Part shown: piece by piece, positions 54,174-60,923 of the stretch
How positions within the stretch are numbered: the stretch's first letter is position 1
Layout: each line of letters opens with the position of its first letter
Assembly: GCA_020073185.1 (NCBI GenBank)
Contig: JAIQFT010000003.1
Span: 1-64,000 of the forward strand
Length of the DNA: 64,000 bases
Direction: 5' to 3'
DNA from: Terriglobia bacterium
GTDB taxonomy: Bacteria > Acidobacteriota > Terriglobia > Terriglobales > Acidobacteriaceae
Notes under the pieces: generated by a model
Seen by the model: the letters and a program-made list of their open reading frames with translations, nothing else
What the model was told of the DNA's origin: nothing
Database searches by the model: none
Translations under genes and position numbers: made by a program

Positions 54174-54362
54174 AAAGCTCCTGAAGCACTCCGGAGACCC
54201 AGGACGCAGACGAAACGTCCGGGGCGGCCAAGGGCGGGGTCTAAGTTCTAAGTTTACGAGCTAGTCAGCGGGCTGGTCAAACGGCAAACGCGGATCGAAA
54301 AATCGCCGGCACGCCGGAAAACAAAATCCCGCACCGCGCATCAATACTAAGCGGAGGTGTGT

Positions 54363-54932
54363 ATGGCGCGCGTTCCGGGCTTGGAGAAAAATCAGGCGCC
54401 CTGGCATTTGCGCTGGTTTTACGGCACCATGCGCAAGATGTTCGGCAAGGACCTTACGCCGGCAAAAATCCAGATGCGGGTACCCGGCATTGTCTGGGGC
54501 GGGATCGCCATGGAAACCGCCCTGGGACGAAAGCGGCGCGTGTCGTTGCGCCTTACGCAGTTGGCCAAGGTGCGCACCGCGGCGCGCGTCGGCTGTCCGT
54601 TTTGAGTGGACATCAATTCTGCCGTGGGCAGAAAAGCCGGCTTGTCCGACGACAAGTTGCTCGCCCTTCGCGGTGACGATCTGTCCGGACTCAGTGATGT
54701 CGAGCGCCTGGTCATTGAACTGGCGGACGCGATGGCAACCGCTCCGTCGAATGTGTCTGACGAACTGTACGAGCGCTTGCGCAGCCAGTTCTCGGTGGAG
54801 CAGTTGCTCGAGTTGGGAGCGCAGATCGCGTTTGAAAACTTCCGGGCGCGCCTGAACCGCGTCTTCGATGTGGGCAGCGACGAACTGTTTGAGCCCAACG
54901 TCACTTCCATCAGGGGCAGCACGGCGGCGTGA
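54363..54932 (+). CDS. AhpD/carboxymuconolactone-decarboxylase-like protein, probable selenoprotein (UGA at codon 81)
   Basis: 189 residues from the ATG at 54363 (GGAGG five bases before), reading through a TGA at 54603-54605. The two halves are in the same frame. The N-terminal half ends KVRTAARVGCPF and the C-terminal half starts VDINSAVGRKAGLSDDKL. Together they give CPF-UGA-VDIN, exactly where CMD/AhpD proteins have a redox CxxC. So the TGA is predicted to be selenocysteine (CxxU; Cys78, Sec81). A hairpin fitting a bacterial SECIS follows. The fold would be an all-helical peroxidase-type protein working on peroxides or disulfides. Known family members include Sec-containing relatives. A true stop or a sequencing error (TGA for TGC/TGT) is the alternative. 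Confidence 0.75.
54617..54633 (+). promoter_or_regulatory. putative bacterial SECIS element
   Basis: ttctgcc, loop gtg, ggcagaa: a perfect 7-bp stem with a 3-nt loop whose first base is G. The loop begins 18 bases after the UGA (54603-54605). Known bSECIS elements lie just downstream of the UGA within the coding frame, with a short apical loop that has a G at its first or second position; this fits. It is not proof of function. Confidence 0.65.
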
Positions 54933-54984: not shown

Positions 54985-55018
54985 GTGATGTTTGTCGGCA
55001 GCCGCCGGCAAACATCAC
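54985..55018. other. 34-nt hairpin directly before the CRISPR array
   Basis: gtgatgtttgtcggc pairs with gccggcaaacatcac, 15 bp with one G-U, around a 4-nt loop agcc. It ends one base before the first repeat (55020). No T-run follows on either strand. Lies at the crRNA 5' end of the array, where a leader or integration site is expected. Another long hairpin closes the array at 56183-56210. Confidence 0.8.
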
Positions 55019-55019
55019 C

Positions 55020-56178
55020 GCTAGGGTTGGCCGAGATTCACCGCTCAAGTACACTCGTCGCGGCCAAGCACCGCCTGCAGGCCATGCTAGGGTTGGCCGA
55101 GATTCACCGCTCAAGTACACTGCCATCCACGTCGGCAAGGACAAGGACATCGCTAGGGTTGGCCGAGATTCACCGCTCAAGTACACTCTTTCACGGCCGC
55201 AATGTGGGCCGCAGCCGGCTAGGGTTGGCCGAGATTCACCGCTCAAGTACACTTCCGCGGCAGCGCGCACCGCGCTGAGTTTCGCTAGGGTTGGCCGAGA
55301 TTCACCGCTCAAGTACACTCGTCGCGGCCAAGCACCGCCTGCAGATCATGCTAGGGTTGGCCGAGATTCACCGCTCAAGTACACTCCAGCAGCAATTTGT
55401 CGGTGATGGTTTGCGGCTAGGGTTGGCCGAGATTCACCGCTCAAGTACACTAAATCGCGCAGCGAGTCCTTGAGAGTTTTGGCTAGGGTTGGCCGAGATT
55501 CACCGCTCAAGTACACTGGCATGGGCGGAGTACTCGCGCCGTTGGGCGCTAGGGTTGGCCGAGATTCACCGCTCAAGTACACTTCGCGAATCTCGTTCCC
55601 GGCGTTGGAATCCGCTAGGGTTGGCCGAGATTCACCGCTCAAGTACACTCGGCCTCGAGGAAGGCGGTGCGGAGTGAAGGCTAGGGTTGGCCGAGATTCA
55701 CCGCTCAAGTACACTGCGCGGAACAAGGTCTCGATATCGTCCGTGGCTAGGGTTGGCCGAGATTCACCGCTCAAGTACACTCCAGGTCCAGGATGGCAAA
55801 CTCGAACTTCTTGCTAGGGTTGGCCGAGATTCACCGCTCAAGTACACTAGGTGAAAGCCGCGATGCTTGCGGAGAACAGCTAGGGTTGGCCGAGATTCAC
55901 CGCTCAAGTACACTATCACCTCCAGCGCGTCGGCAAAGGTTTGAGCTAGGGTTGGCCGAGATTCACCGCTCAAGTACACTGGCACGGGAGCGGCTACCCT
56001 GTCGATCGCTGCTAGGGTTGGCCGAGATTCACCGCTCAAGTACACTGTGACCGTAAAAACGTATTCCTCCGTTCCGGCTAGGGTTGGCCGAGATTCACCG
56101 CTCAAGTACACTCCGCAGCCAACCACCCCCAGCCGACGCTGAGCTAGGGTTGGCCGAGATTCACCGCTCAAGTACACT
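55020..56178 (+). CRISPR. type II-C CRISPR array, 18 repeats, 17 spacers
   Basis: Repeats of 36 nt, starting gctagggttggccgag and ending cgctcaagtacact, are identical in all 18 copies, including both terminal ones. Unit length is 66 except where spacer 12 (55782-55812) is 31 nt instead of 30. Repeat starts: 55020, 55086, 55152, 55218, 55284, 55350, 55416, 55482, 55548, 55614, 55680, 55746, 55813, 55879, 55945, 56011, 56077, 56143. Direction plus is set by the tracrRNA anti-repeat at 60931. Spacers 1 (55056-55085) and 5 (55320-55349) share 28 of 30 bases. Spacers are GC-rich; targets unknown. Confidence 0.98.
55027..55055 (+). promoter_or_regulatory. repeat-embedded promoter (one in each repeat)
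   Basis: In each repeat, ttggcc (repeat nt 8-13; -35-like, four of six consensus bases), 17 nt and tacact (repeat nt 31-36; -10-like, four of six) form a sigma70-type promoter. The expected start, about seven bases on, falls inside the spacer and would leave about 24 spacer bases in the crRNA. Known II-C systems (Neisseria) have a repeat-encoded -10 of this kind. The coordinates given are for repeat 1; the same holds in all 18. Confidence 0.6.
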
Positions 56179-56182
56179 TCGT

Positions 56183-56210
56183 CCCGCGTAAGCTCCTGAG
56201 CTTACGCGGG
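56183..56210. terminator. 12-bp hairpin between array and cas2
   Basis: cccgcgtaagct, loop cctg, agcttacgcggg: a perfect 12-bp stem. It lies four bases past the last repeat and 18 bases before the cas2 stop codon, so it could separate the two convergent transcripts. Neither strand has a T-run after the stem, so a classical intrinsic terminator is not certain. Confidence 0.55.
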
Positions 56211-56228
56211 ATTCGCTTCGTTCCTGGC

Positions 56229-56567
56229 TCAGAAAAGCAGCATCTGGCTCTGCGGTTCCTCCGGTTTGCGCGGCTTTCTTCCATAAAAAACTTCCATTTT
56301 CCCGAACTGATGATCGGTAACCGCGATCAGCCGCACCTGGCCCAGCGGCGGGACTGCGCTCCGCACGGTCTTACGGTGAGCCTCGGCGGCTTCTTCGCTC
56401 GGCAAATAACGCGCATACACCGAGAGCTGCAGCATCATGAAGCCATCCTTGAGCAGCGCCTTGCGGAAACGCGTGTAATTGCGCCGGTCTTCCTTGTCTT
56501 CCACCGGCAGGTCAAACATTGCCATCAGCCACATGGGACGAAACGCGGACAGCGGTTGCGGCAGCAT
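56229..56567 (-). CDS. cas2: CRISPR-associated endonuclease Cas2
   Basis: 112 residues taking the codon at 56567 as start (MLPQPLSAFRPMWLMAMFDL); an ATG at 56534 is an alternative. Short ferredoxin-like fold; Asp of the strand in MFDLPVEDK, then MMLQLSVYARYLPSEEAA and DHQFGKMEVFYGRKPRKPEE. With Cas1 it inserts new spacers; Cas2 is usually structural in the complex. The 56-base overlap with cas1 indicates coupling. Last gene of the operon, 50 bases from the array. Confidence 0.95.
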   Translation of the reverse strand: MLPQPLSAFRPMWLMAMFDLPVEDKEDRRNYTRFRKALLKDGFMMLQLSVYARYLPSEEAAEAHRKTVRSAVPPLGQVRLIAVTDHQFGKMEVFYGRKPRKPEEPQSQMLLF

Positions 56568-57462
56568 AGCTCACATCCGGAATTTCCATTGCGTTGCTTT
56601 CGCCCAGCAGGGCGCGCGCCAAACTGGTCGCCGCCTTGCCTGCGAGGTCGAACAAGCTTCTTTCTTCTCCCCCGGATTCATACCGTCGCTGGATTTCGCC
56701 GATCAGGCGCGCTTTGGCATGCTTGTCCAGCAGTTGAATCGGATCGTGGTCCTGGATCCAAAAATACACGGCGCGGTCCACCAGCGGGCGAAAGGGCTCC
56801 ATCAGGTCGTCGGCCAGGCAAAATGCGTCGTAACGGTTGTGATGCTTGAGTCCGAACGACGGGTGCAGCCCTGCGGCGCACACCGCCCTCGCCACCATGG
56901 CACGCAGCACCGCGTAGCCGTAATTCAGATGGCTATTCTGGTCCGGCCCCTCGCTGCCGCGCCGGAATTTCGCATCGGCGAACAGAAGCGGCCAATAACG
57001 CCGCGACGCCTGCGACTCCAGTTGGCCGGCATCGCCGGAGCGGACCCGTTCCGCCATCGCCAACAGCCCGCCATCGTGGCCGTGCAGCTCCTCCAACAAG
57101 CGGCCCTGGTTGCGAATCTTGGCGCGCACAATCTGCTGCCACAGCCGCTTGCGCAACGGCAGCGACGCCAGTGCCTGTTTGGCGAACCGCTCCGCCTGCG
57201 TGCCGTGCGCCTGCACCGGGAGCATCATGGCGACCGGCAGATATTTCTGATCGCAGATCACCACCGATCCACCCAATTCCGCCACCCCGGCAATCACCGC
57301 CTGCGTCATCAGCACCCGCGGATGCGAGATGACCAGCACGGCGATCTCCGAGAGCGGTGTCGTAATCGCCGCCGCCCCGCCTTCCGGCTCGATCACAAGC
57401 TGCGCATTGCGCACGTGCAGCGTCGCCGCCGTTTCCGAGATGTCAATGATGCGGTCAGTCAT
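56512..57462 (-). CDS. cas1: CRISPR-associated integrase Cas1 (type II)
   Basis: 316 residues from the ATG at 57462 (MTDRIIDISETAATLHVRNA), which overlaps the cas9 stop by eight bases. N-terminal beta domain, then the alpha catalytic part with LNYGYAVLRAMVARAVCAAG, the metal His in GLHPSFGLKHHNRYDAFCLA and the Asp in LADDLMEPFRPLVDRAVYF. Integrates spacers with Cas2. No csn2 or cas4 gene is next to it, as in subtype II-C. Confidence 0.96.
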   Translation of the reverse strand: MTDRIIDISETAATLHVRNAQLVIEPEGGAAAITTPLSEIAVLVISHPRVLMTQAVIAGVAELGGSVVICDQKYLPVAMMLPVQAHGTQAERFAKQALASLPLRKRLWQQIVRAKIRNQGRLLEELHGHDGGLLAMAERVRSGDAGQLESQASRRYWPLLFADAKFRRGSEGPDQNSHLNYGYAVLRAMVARAVCAAGLHPSFGLKHHNRYDAFCLADDLMEPFRPLVDRAVYFWIQDHDPIQLLDKHAKARLIGEIQRRYESGGEERSLFDLAGKAATSLARALLGESNAMEIPDVSYAAATAVRVSSHVADGNV

Positions 57463-60400
57463 AAGCGTAGTGCGGCTGTCCCAACATGAGGGGATCGACC
57501 GCGATTTTTCGGCAGTTCGCAACCCGTAGCTGGTCCACAGAACGAATGCGAATCAATTCGCTACCCTGTCCCTTTCGAAAATCCTTGAAAGAAACCCTTT
57601 TCAGATCTTCTAGTCTCCTTGCCTCCGAATGCCGTACGAGGTCGATCTCGACATCCCCACTGGCTTCTTCACTAATGGTCCTCACAATGAACAGATCTTT
57701 TCGTCTTCCACCCGAATCGTCCATTTCCACCGTGTCTCCTGGCATAAGTGAAAACAGAAACTCGGATTCAAGCCGTCTCGGTGCATCATCATGCGGCCAC
57801 GAATGTCGCACTAAGTTGTCTTTGCTCTTCGTTTCTTTCAGGTCCTGCCACCTATCTAGTGCGTCTTTGCGGCTGACCACGCCCGGACTGTCCCACTTCT
57901 CGCGCCGATTCTCGTCTCGCACGATAAAGATCGGAATGTGGTGGTTTTCGGCCAGGGACACATTTCGTTCCCGAACTCCGTTTGCCACCGTTACAACTCT
58001 GACTGGCACGTGAATTCGCACCTTGCGAATCGGGATTTCCTCACCTTTCTTCGTTCGAAGTGCGGGTGGAGAATCCTTGAATTTCTTCGGGTCGCCGATC
58101 TCGGATAACTTTGCCTTTACAGCAGCCGCTATAGCGCCGTCTACGATCAACTTCTCTGCATTGATCTGAGCTGCGGTCAACTCCCAAACGAATTTGCGCT
58201 TATGGACCTCTTGCCGTTTCAATCCTCTTGCCACAGCATATGTATTAGCGTCGTCAATCTTGCCGTTCAGTTTCCGTTTGGGCCTGTGAGACACCTTAAG
58301 AGCCGACACCTCGGCCTCGATGCTCGACACGAAATCCTGCCAGGGTGCCTCTACGTATCGTGACGTGACTCTCTCCGCGCCCCGCGCCCCATGGAAAGCG
58401 GCTGCCGCACCACTCATACGCTGCACCACCCCTTGGCTCGTCAGCGCAATTACTACAGCGTCGATCGCATGATGGCGATGGTCGCTTCGTTTTGCCGGCT
58501 GATTTGGCCTCGGTTTCGGAAACAAGTGCCGAACGACAGCCTCCAATTGCCAAGCCCGCCGCAAGGCAGCGGTACTGATGCCGGTCGACACATACACCCG
58601 TCGTACTCGCCTCTTTGTTCCCGCCAACGAATCCAACATCTCTTCGTCACGACCGCCATAAAGAGCACCTACGTAATCCGCCGCCAACGTGCTAGCGTAA
58701 CGTGTATCGTTCAACGCTCGTGCGGAGAACTTTTCCAGTTCTTCCTCCGTCGTGATCTGGAACCGGCGTAGCTTTTCGCGGTTTCCCATTTTGCGCACCC
58801 GTTCCAGAATTCCGTCCCACTCATTGGAGGGACCACAGGCTTCGAAAGGCGTCCATCCAGCTTTGTACTTTCGGTTGAACTCCGCATCGCACAACGTCTT
58901 GTTCTGGAATGAATCGTCGGCAAAGCGCCGCTTCGGCAGTATGTGCTCCACATCGAAGCGTGGCGGCGATCCAAACAAGTCGGAGAACGCGATGCTTTTA
59001 CCCGTGTAGGGGCATATTCCCTTGCACTCCTCCCATAGTTTAAGTTTCTCTATTTCAGCGCCGCATTCTCTCCAGAGCCGCACTTTCTCAATGTCTGCGG
59101 GCTTAACCTGCTCCTCGTCGATGCCGAGCTTGATAGAAATTAGCTTCCGTAGCCTCTTGCGCTCTGTTGCATCTCGCTCCATGCGCTCATTTTCCAGCCG
59201 GCGTTGCTCCATGTTCCGTTTCAAATCGCGCGCCAACTCGATTCGAATCTCACGTGGTTTCTTCCCGAATTTGCGGATGATTGCGTTTACCGTCTTGCGC
59301 AACTCGGTCAGCGCGCGCCTCACGGCAGGGTTGGGAACATGCGGCAAAACATCACATAGCGGTGGAAGAAAGTCGTGTTTCTCATTACCAGAAAAACTAT
59401 TTCCGTAGCGATCCTCTTCCGCCGTCTTGAACGGCACCCCTCTCTCCATCAGCGGCAGAAGCTTCCTCAGCGCCTCCAACGATAGTTTGGAATATCCATC
59501 CTCTGCTTCTTTGCTGGCAAGCATCCGCGCCTGGTCCGCTGATAGCCCTAGTCGCTGTTGGGCCCACTCGACCAGCTTGGGCCCATCCTGCTCGTCCATC
59601 CACCGTTGTACGATTTCGTTTTTTTGATTATCCGTGAATTCCTTCCACCCACTGCCAAACACTTGGCGCATGTGCGAGGCTGTGCGGTTTCCCTTGACCT
59701 TTCGCTCTGGGTTCAACTTTCCGGCAGCGCGCTCCAAATTCAGGTGGGCTCCTCCGGAGATGCCGAGAAAATCACGAATTTGGCGGCATGACATCTCGGC
59801 TCTTCGTCCCAACTCATCCGCCAGTTTCGACCGATCTTCAGACGAAAGTTCCCACTCATCCAAACCGTCGATGACCGTGATGTCATTCACCTTCTGGAGC
59901 ACCCGAAATTGCTGCGCTTCGAGGCAGCTCGTCGGCGCACGCCTCTTGGTTCGCTCCAACCGGCATCGGCCGATCAGGTGTTTGTTTGTTGCCACGGGCC
60001 GCTGGTAAAAAAGGAGACGGTAAACGCGGCCCTTGAATCTCGCGTCACCCAGAAGTTCTTGCCAGTCTGCGTACTCGGCCTGATTGTCCCAAATTGCCTC
60101 GAATTCATGTTTGAACATCTGGCGTGCCGTGTACTCGCCCCGAACGCGCCGTTCCAGCGGGTTGCAGTTAGCGAAATACTCGCCGAGGGTCCGGGCGTTT
60201 TTGTCCTTCATTCGCCGATCCAGGTCCGCGATCCCAGCCAGCACCCTGCCGGTTTCCTCTTCAGCATTAGCCGGTTCCTGGAGAGTGCGTTTTGAGCGTT
60301 TGCGTGGCGACGCTGCCCCTTCAACAGCTCCCTCAGTCCGCCCACGTCCTGCCTTCCGATTGCTCTCGTAACCGCGTCGCTGCCCAAGACTGTAAAGTGC

Positions 60401-60883
60401 CCTGCCAAGTTCCTCGGGTTCAAGGCGATGATCCAGCGCACGAGCCCGAAGGAGATAAGGCATCACATGTTCGACTTGCTGCACCTCCGGATACCAGGCA
60501 CGAACGCGCCTCAGCAGTTCGTGATCCAGACCCTTCTTTTCCTTGCTGCGGGCGGGTCCATGCAGTATTTCTTGACGGACTTCTGGCGAAGTGCGCCGGC
60601 CAGTGCTCGCACCCGGGAGTAACCCTTTGAATTGCAGCAGGGCGAACAATTCTGACTGCCTTGCTGCGCGGCGCCGCGTTTGCCGCCGCTGCAAACGTGC
60701 GCGGCGCCGCTCTGCGGCGTTCGACGAATCGGTTCTCCCGACAGCAAACTTGACGGGATCTGCTCCCGCCTCAAACACGCGAACGCCGATGCCACACACT
60801 CTTTTCCTGTCCGCACCGACAGCTGCCCACCCCAATGAGCGCGTTCCAAGGTCAAGGCCCAAGATGTAGTCTTCGTTAGCCAT
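57455..60883 (-). CDS. cas9: CRISPR effector nuclease Cas9, subtype II-C
   Basis: 1142 residues from the ATG at 60883 (MANEDYILGLDLGTRSLGW), which has GGAG six bases upstream; an ATG at 60895 would add four. RuvC-I Asp11 in GLDLGTRSLGW; Arg-rich bridge helix AERRRARLQRRQTRRRAARQ; RuvC-II Glu549 in REIRIELARDLKR; HNH with His647 in FDVEHILPKRRFADDSFQN and its later Asn residues; RuvC-III His805/Asp808 in HHAIDAVVIALTSQG. It cuts target DNA guided by crRNA-tracrRNA. The PAM-reading C-terminus has no motif that I can read. Long for II-C (many are about 1000-1100). The gene's AT-rich stretches differ from the window average, which suggests transfer. Confidence 0.97.
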   Translation of the reverse strand: MANEDYILGLDLGTRSLGWAAVGADRKRVCGIGVRVFEAGADPVKFAVGRTDSSNAAERRRARLQRRQTRRRAARQSELFALLQFKGLLPGASTGRRTSPEVRQEILHGPARSKEKKGLDHELLRRVRAWYPEVQQVEHVMPYLLRARALDHRLEPEELGRALYSLGQRRGYESNRKAGRGRTEGAVEGAASPRKRSKRTLQEPANAEEETGRVLAGIADLDRRMKDKNARTLGEYFANCNPLERRVRGEYTARQMFKHEFEAIWDNQAEYADWQELLGDARFKGRVYRLLFYQRPVATNKHLIGRCRLERTKRRAPTSCLEAQQFRVLQKVNDITVIDGLDEWELSSEDRSKLADELGRRAEMSCRQIRDFLGISGGAHLNLERAAGKLNPERKVKGNRTASHMRQVFGSGWKEFTDNQKNEIVQRWMDEQDGPKLVEWAQQRLGLSADQARMLASKEAEDGYSKLSLEALRKLLPLMERGVPFKTAEEDRYGNSFSGNEKHDFLPPLCDVLPHVPNPAVRRALTELRKTVNAIIRKFGKKPREIRIELARDLKRNMEQRRLENERMERDATERKRLRKLISIKLGIDEEQVKPADIEKVRLWRECGAEIEKLKLWEECKGICPYTGKSIAFSDLFGSPPRFDVEHILPKRRFADDSFQNKTLCDAEFNRKYKAGWTPFEACGPSNEWDGILERVRKMGNREKLRRFQITTEEELEKFSARALNDTRYASTLAADYVGALYGGRDEEMLDSLAGTKRRVRRVYVSTGISTAALRRAWQLEAVVRHLFPKPRPNQPAKRSDHRHHAIDAVVIALTSQGVVQRMSGAAAAFHGARGAERVTSRYVEAPWQDFVSSIEAEVSALKVSHRPKRKLNGKIDDANTYAVARGLKRQEVHKRKFVWELTAAQINAEKLIVDGAIAAAVKAKLSEIGDPKKFKDSPPALRTKKGEEIPIRKVRIHVPVRVVTVANGVRERNVSLAENHHIPIFIVRDENRREKWDSPGVVSRKDALDRWQDLKETKSKDNLVRHSWPHDDAPRRLESEFLFSLMPGDTVEMDDSGGRRKDLFIVRTISEEASGDVEIDLVRHSEARRLEDLKRVSFKDFRKGQGSELIRIRSVDQLRVANCRKIAVDPLMLGQPHYAYD

Positions 60884-60894
60884 GAATAACTCCA

Positions 60895-60923
60895 TTGACG
60901 GGAATGAGGTCGAGCAGTATCCT
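60895..60923 (+). promoter_or_regulatory. putative tracrRNA promoter
   Basis: ttgacg (60895-60900; five of six -35 bases), 17-nt spacer (60901-60917), tatcct (60918-60923; four of six -10 bases). A start seven bases later falls at 60930-60931, the first base of the anti-repeat. The promoter overlaps the 5' untranslated region of cas9, on the other strand. Confidence 0.7.

Follow-up and report, generated by a model that had tools for sequence, protein, structure and literature searches.

A probable AhpD-fold selenoprotein with a CPFU motif in an acidobacterial genome

The 64-kb stretch of acidobacterial contig DNA analysed here (64,000 nt, hereafter the window) contains a gene for an AhpD-fold protein in which an in-frame UGA is very probably decoded as selenocysteine (Sec). 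This reading, put forward in the first-pass annotation, is supported by conservation of the UGA codon, by the sel genes of the host, by conservation of a hairpin just downstream and by purifying selection on both halves of the gene. The description of the gene as ‘unrecognised’ held only in part, since neither the gene nor its clade passes any NCBIfam cut-off, whilst AhpD-like CxxU proteins (COG2128) have been known since 2005. That year saw the description of such selenoproteins from the Sargasso Sea (PMC1088965), later reviews treat them as well, and the accompanying statement that Sec-containing AhpD-like proteins exist in environmental bacteria was correct (PMC1088965, PMC1794560). The kind of protein is therefore known, whilst the clade appears to lie beyond the curated protein models searched, and no report of it in Acidobacteria was found among open-licence papers.

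Reading frame, conserved UGA and downstream hairpin

Read directly from the sequence, positions 54363-54929 form 189 codons with a sole internal stop, the TGA at residue 81 (Table 1), just as the first-pass annotation had described. C78-P79-F80 precedes the UGA and VDINSAVGRK follows it, the full context being ...RVGCPF-U81-VDINSAVGRK. The expectation that a plain gene caller would split the gene was also correct, as the ORF list holds two pieces, one of 82 aa up to the UGA and one of 108 aa from the next GTG. The window protein matches the Pfam CMD family (PF02627) with 27.4 bits (cut-off 23), and a sigma-70 promoter scan at the gene returned a single weak site, which is on the other strand.

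Table 1. Features of the putative selenoprotein gene (positions in the window)
Feature	Position	Strand	Remarks
Shine-Dalgarno GGAGG	54353..54357	+	5 nt upstream of ATG; read directly
Putative selenoprotein gene	54363..54932	+	189 aa, Sec = residue 81; CMD/AhpD fold, PF02627 spans residues 52-103
C78 codon, predicted resolving cysteine in CxxU	54594..54596	+	residue invariant in alignment
UGA probably read as selenocysteine, U81 of C78-P-F-U81	54603..54605	+	in-frame TGA; homologues with same codon
Candidate bSECIS hairpin	54617..54633	+	7-bp stem UUCUGCC/GGCAGAA, loop GUG
Terminating TGA of the gene	54930..54932	+	relatives' stops: TAA, TAG or TGA

Homologues were found in 36 of the 298 genomes of the order, in addition to a contig-end fragment (G249) and a 53-codon remnant (G228), and in all 31 order homologues read at the motif the UGA occupies the same codon, with both halves of the gene conserved; where a match shows a second stop, this is the gene's own terminal one. 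A pattern scan of GTDB contig DNA returned at least 117 matches in at least 116 stretches; all 117 matches listed are family members by profile HMM, and all have UGA at this codon (117/117, the TGA being present by construction) together with conserved halves. The phyla among the matches listed are Acidobacteriota, Verrucomicrobiota, Planctomycetota, Gemmatimonadota, Myxococcota, Binatota, Rokubacteria, Fidelibacterota and Actinomycetota, and the matches listed include the isolate Pseudonocardia acaciae DSM 45401 (L132). At codon 81 the homologues have Sec and the more distant Cys relatives carry Cys, U81 aligning with the second Cys of their CxxC, which bears out the proposal that the UGA stands in for the second Cys of the AhpD motif. 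Compared with its nearest relative, the window gene has a dN/dS of 0.28 in the part before the UGA and of 0.21 in the part after it, values which indicate that both gene halves are under purifying selection, and the decayed halves that would have spoken for a random stop were not seen.

The hairpin lies where the first-pass annotation had placed it, with 11 nt between the UGA and its stem and 18 nt between the UGA and its loop. The published model of the bacterial SECIS (bSECIS) specifies a loop of 3-9 nt, an upper stem of 4-16 bp, a spacing of 16-37 nt, an MFE of <= -7.5 kcal/mol and a G at loop position 1 or 2, most often with G or U after it (PMC13188914). The window hairpin agrees with this model throughout, having a loop of 3 nt (GUG), a stem of 7 bp, a spacing of 18 nt and an MFE of -9.1 kcal/mol over 38 nt. 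This folding energy is nevertheless at chance level (z -0.69; 50 of 200 shuffles are at least as stable), and because it is ordinary for its composition a hairpin in this single sequence is not evidence by itself. An Rfam search of the hairpin gave chance miRNA matches only.

Judged across the aligned genes, conservation of the hairpin between species is far beyond chance and includes compensatory changes. Ser86 is encoded by TCT in 122 of 132 sequences (92%) against 79 of 1233 elsewhere in the genes (6%; p ~1e-105), and Arg90 by AGR (AGA/AGG) in 120 of 123 (98%) against 201 of 2054 elsewhere (10%; p ~1e-105), so that the hairpin-forming codons run against these genes' own preference; the 117 pattern matches contain TGA, TCN and GCN-G by construction, and in the unbiased set of 31 protein-search homologues the counts are 30/31 for TCT and 28/31 for AGR. 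The loop codon begins with G in 31/31 of the protein-search homologues, and by construction in the pattern matches. Among 127 distinct sequences, 94% of stem cells are paired, compared with 39-54% after sliding the stem by 1-3 nt. The outermost pair (14,30) covaries (TA, CG, GC, TG) and is paired in 111 of the 127, where the shuffle mean was 72 and 0 of 20000 shuffles came as high; the stem pair (17,27) covaries too. Exceptions include L037 and L040, in which the stem is displaced and the loop contains GGU. The idea of a pseudogene or sequencing error, in which a former CxxC gene has acquired a nonsense mutation or a base has been miscalled, draws on the lone in-frame stop and on the truncated remnant in the congener G228, and is rejected as next to impossible: the homologues read come from independent assemblies and from several phyla, and all share this UGA codon; selection is purifying on both sides of it, and an extreme codon bias forms the hairpin.

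Selenocysteine machinery and distribution of the clade

The host genome (G000; 4.66 Mb, 121 contigs, 100% complete) was searched for selA, selB, selC and selD, whose absence would have counted against a selenoprotein, and all four were found. SelA scored 555 bits, SelB 366 bits and SelD 365 bits, and the tRNA-Sec, with anticodon UCA, discriminator G (G73) and encoded CCA, matched the Rfam tRNA-Sec family with 66.8 bits. The host selD (G000:C65:6893-7837, L059) likewise carries an in-frame UGA, within GU-ASKL, with its own hairpin downstream, and SelD is itself a likely selenoprotein. The same genome holds a second UGA-containing paralogue with the CPFU motif (C93:13603-14136). In the decoding step that we propose, SelB with Sec-tRNA-Sec(UCA) would bind the bSECIS hairpin 18 nt downstream, and the UGA at codon 81 would be read as Sec.

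Two other ways of reading the codon were weighed. Some anaerobic bacteria possess selC* tRNA-Cys species with UCA anticodons, which have U73 (PMC7609411), and the UGA might by such a tRNA-Cys(UCA) be decoded as Cys, or as another amino acid by ordinary suppression. Here this is exceedingly improbable, and UGA-to-Cys decoding is rejected, since the UCA tRNA of this genome is a tRNA-Sec by Rfam with G rather than U73 at the discriminator position; SelA is present along with a SelD that has its own in-frame UGA, and a hairpin under selection is needed by SelB-dependent decoding and not by plain suppression. It is also highly unlikely that the UGA acts in addition as a selenium-dependent stop, yielding an 80-aa product, or separate 82- and 108-aa pieces, with a regulatory role. 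Partial termination at a Sec UGA is usual in selenoproteins, and a GTG directly follows the UGA in the window gene. The codon after U81, however, specifies Ile in most relatives and V, L or M in the others, and is thus not kept as a start codon, and the AhpD fold needs both halves.

The gene's distribution was compared with that of the Sec machinery. SelB occurs in 33 of the 36 order genomes with the gene and in 101 of the 262 others (Fisher p = 5e-10, uncorrected for phylogeny); two of the three carriers without SelB (G276, G117) possess selA together with a selD that contains a UGA, and the third is 54% complete. The congener G020 has SelB and no copy of the gene, whilst the congener G228 (L056, G228:C69), which possesses both SelB and SelA, has lost all of it but codons 1-53. 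The G228 remnant is a lineage-specific loss, and since one congener has no copy and the other a truncated one despite SelB, the gene is dispensable. A tblastn search of plasmid records returned only distant relatives of <60% identity, the best of them E. coli YnjA.

In a quick tree the Sec label changes at least three times in the wider family, and every CPFU row is Sec, those from the pattern scan by construction. No CPFC member occurred among the matches read in protein and profile searches, and Cys-containing relatives, E. coli YnjA and PDB proteins among them, fall outside the CPFU clade. On these comparisons the soil clade is apparently all-Sec; with Sec in at least eight phyla and no Cys version found, it provides a useful case for the question of what selenium can do and sulfur cannot. 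A sister group with the motif C-x-F-U-QDINAAV(G/S)S has Sec in 6/6 copies (G392, G475, G525, G452, G326, G435; L182-L185, L187, L188). Distant COG2128/AhpD-like genes, some with an in-frame TGA, adjoin selB in about a dozen order genomes (among them G034, G041, G098, G141, G150, G151, G156, G251 and G284), and G234 has a CPFU-clade member immediately downstream of its selB, both genes being on one strand. Gene callers that treat UGA as a stop split or shorten such genes, and because no NCBIfam model reaches the clade at its cut-off either, an abundant soil selenoprotein may be annotated too rarely across many MAGs.

Genomic neighbourhood

Neighbour clustering across the clade loci, made without antisense frames of the selenoprotein gene itself, revealed no partner common to the clade as a whole; the neighbours were lineage-specific ones and SigJ/ECF41-type sigma factors, and no operon partner in the 64-kb window points to a substrate. 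A SigJ-like sigma gene adjoins the gene in four relatives (L035, L113, L127, L168), and one of these four sigma factors, when scanned, gave a weak SnoaL-like C-terminal match. The upstream sequences of the same four relatives match TGTCACA-n16-CGTC, the ECF41 promoter signature (PMC3426412), to which the 148 loci gave 5 matches and the control strand gave 1. Some relatives look like targets of ECF41-type sigma factors; this does not extend to the window copy, near which neither an ECF41 sigma factor nor a TGTCACA-n16-CGTC promoter was found. The link in those members offers a testable regulatory handle. Upstream of the second UGA-containing paralogue of the host lies an apparent truncated remnant of a SigJ/ECF41-like sigma factor (L055:12262-12820, G000:C93), of which there is the C-terminal half only and which is 44% identical to the sigma neighbour of L035.

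Downstream of the window gene, a near-perfect 15-bp inverted repeat (54985-55018, loop AGCC, no T run) is situated between the gene and the first repeat of a CRISPR array. The array begins ~90 nt past the stop, with a 66-nt period and repeats from 55020 to about 56178, and is followed on the - strand by cas2-, cas1- and cas9-like ORFs, the Cas9-like ORF encoding 1146 aa (57455-60895). By eye, 55020-60895 looks like a type II-C CRISPR locus.

Fold, putative function and relation to known proteins

An AlphaFold model of the window protein, made with 23 homologues, is all-helical with a mean pLDDT of 90.6, and the CPFU motif begins the helix at residues 79-91. The nearest PDB structures are AhpD-core proteins, with TM up to 0.84, and sequence profiles reach the same group. 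In the folded protein a redox pair made up of C78 and Sec81 would stand where this helix begins. By analogy with the family, the reactive residue is most probably Sec81, which would reduce peroxide or another oxidised substrate, C78 would act as the resolving residue by closing a selenenylsulfide with Sec81, and a thiol donor would then reopen it. A role as a thiol/selenol peroxidase or disulfide oxidoreductase is, from family membership, the rather probable one.

The surroundings of the motif have features of their own. Asp at U+2 is invariant in the clade, and the residue at U+4 is G in 71, N in 49 and H in 13 of 133 members. The window protein has Asn85 there, and lacks the classical AhpD His, which stands at the fourth position past the second Cys (2gmy CAFCVDMH). 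With Asp at +2 and mostly no His at +4, the proton relay probably differs from the 2gmy type, and the replacement of His by Asn in the window protein suggests that its chemistry may differ from that of classical AhpD. These same residues, and the presence of the CMD-fold debrominase Bmp8 among the structural and sequence neighbours, lend some weight to a main activity other than peroxide reduction, for example that of a disulfide reductase or a Bmp8-like reductive dehalogenase, which concerns function only and is compatible with Sec insertion. We regard this as possible but doubtful. AhpD-fold CxxU and CxxC motifs generally serve thiol-dependent oxidant defence. The position of some relatives beside SigJ/ECF41-type sigma factors and promoters also speaks against it, that linkage having been read as oxidative-stress defence (PMC3426412). 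We tentatively entertain, whilst thinking it unlikely in full, a broader proposal: that the clade is a large, phylum-spanning, obligately Sec soil clade with an invariant Asp at U+2 in place of His at U+4, that it catalyses a selenium-dependent reaction distinct from that of classical AhpD, that it accounts in part for the retention of the Sec machinery by soil acidobacteria and other soil phyla, and that some of its members are wired to ECF41-type sigma factors.

Of the proteins with known structures, the AhpD-type peroxidase-related 2prr, 2gmy and 2ijc have a fold like that of the window protein (TM 0.65-0.84); 2gmy and 2ijc carry CxxC at the position that aligns with the window CxxU, and motif +4, which is mostly Gly or Asn in the window clade, is His in 2gmy. 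E. coli YnjA belongs to the same fold family, with 34% identity over 178 residues and Cys at the position of Sec81, but differs in having CEFC rather than CPFU, no UGA and Thr at motif +4. The ECF41-COE pairs resemble the four sigma-linked relatives in setting a CMD-domain gene beside an ECF41-type sigma factor and its promoter (PMC3426412). The ECF41-linked CMD proteins seen in that study all have CxxC, whereas the sigma-linked relatives found here are predicted CxxU selenoproteins. Against the TIGR01926 peroxidase-related enzyme model the window protein scored 21.6 bits, below the cut-off of 81.8 bits. Of the NCBIfam models the best-matching one is NF053654 (‘GroundWater_YciW’ YciW-related (seleno)protein), with an alignment that spans the full length, and to it the window protein scored 109.6 bits and eight other clade members 91-150 bits (maximum 150.5), all below the cut-off of 310. 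The clade motif, CPFU-[IVLM]-D-x-[GNH]-S-A, may set these proteins apart from the AhpD-like COG2128/YciW-group selenoproteins (PMC1088965, PMC9312934, PMC13188914), with which the window protein nonetheless has in common the AhpD/CMD fold, a predicted Sec in place of the second Cys and a putative bacterial SECIS just downstream.
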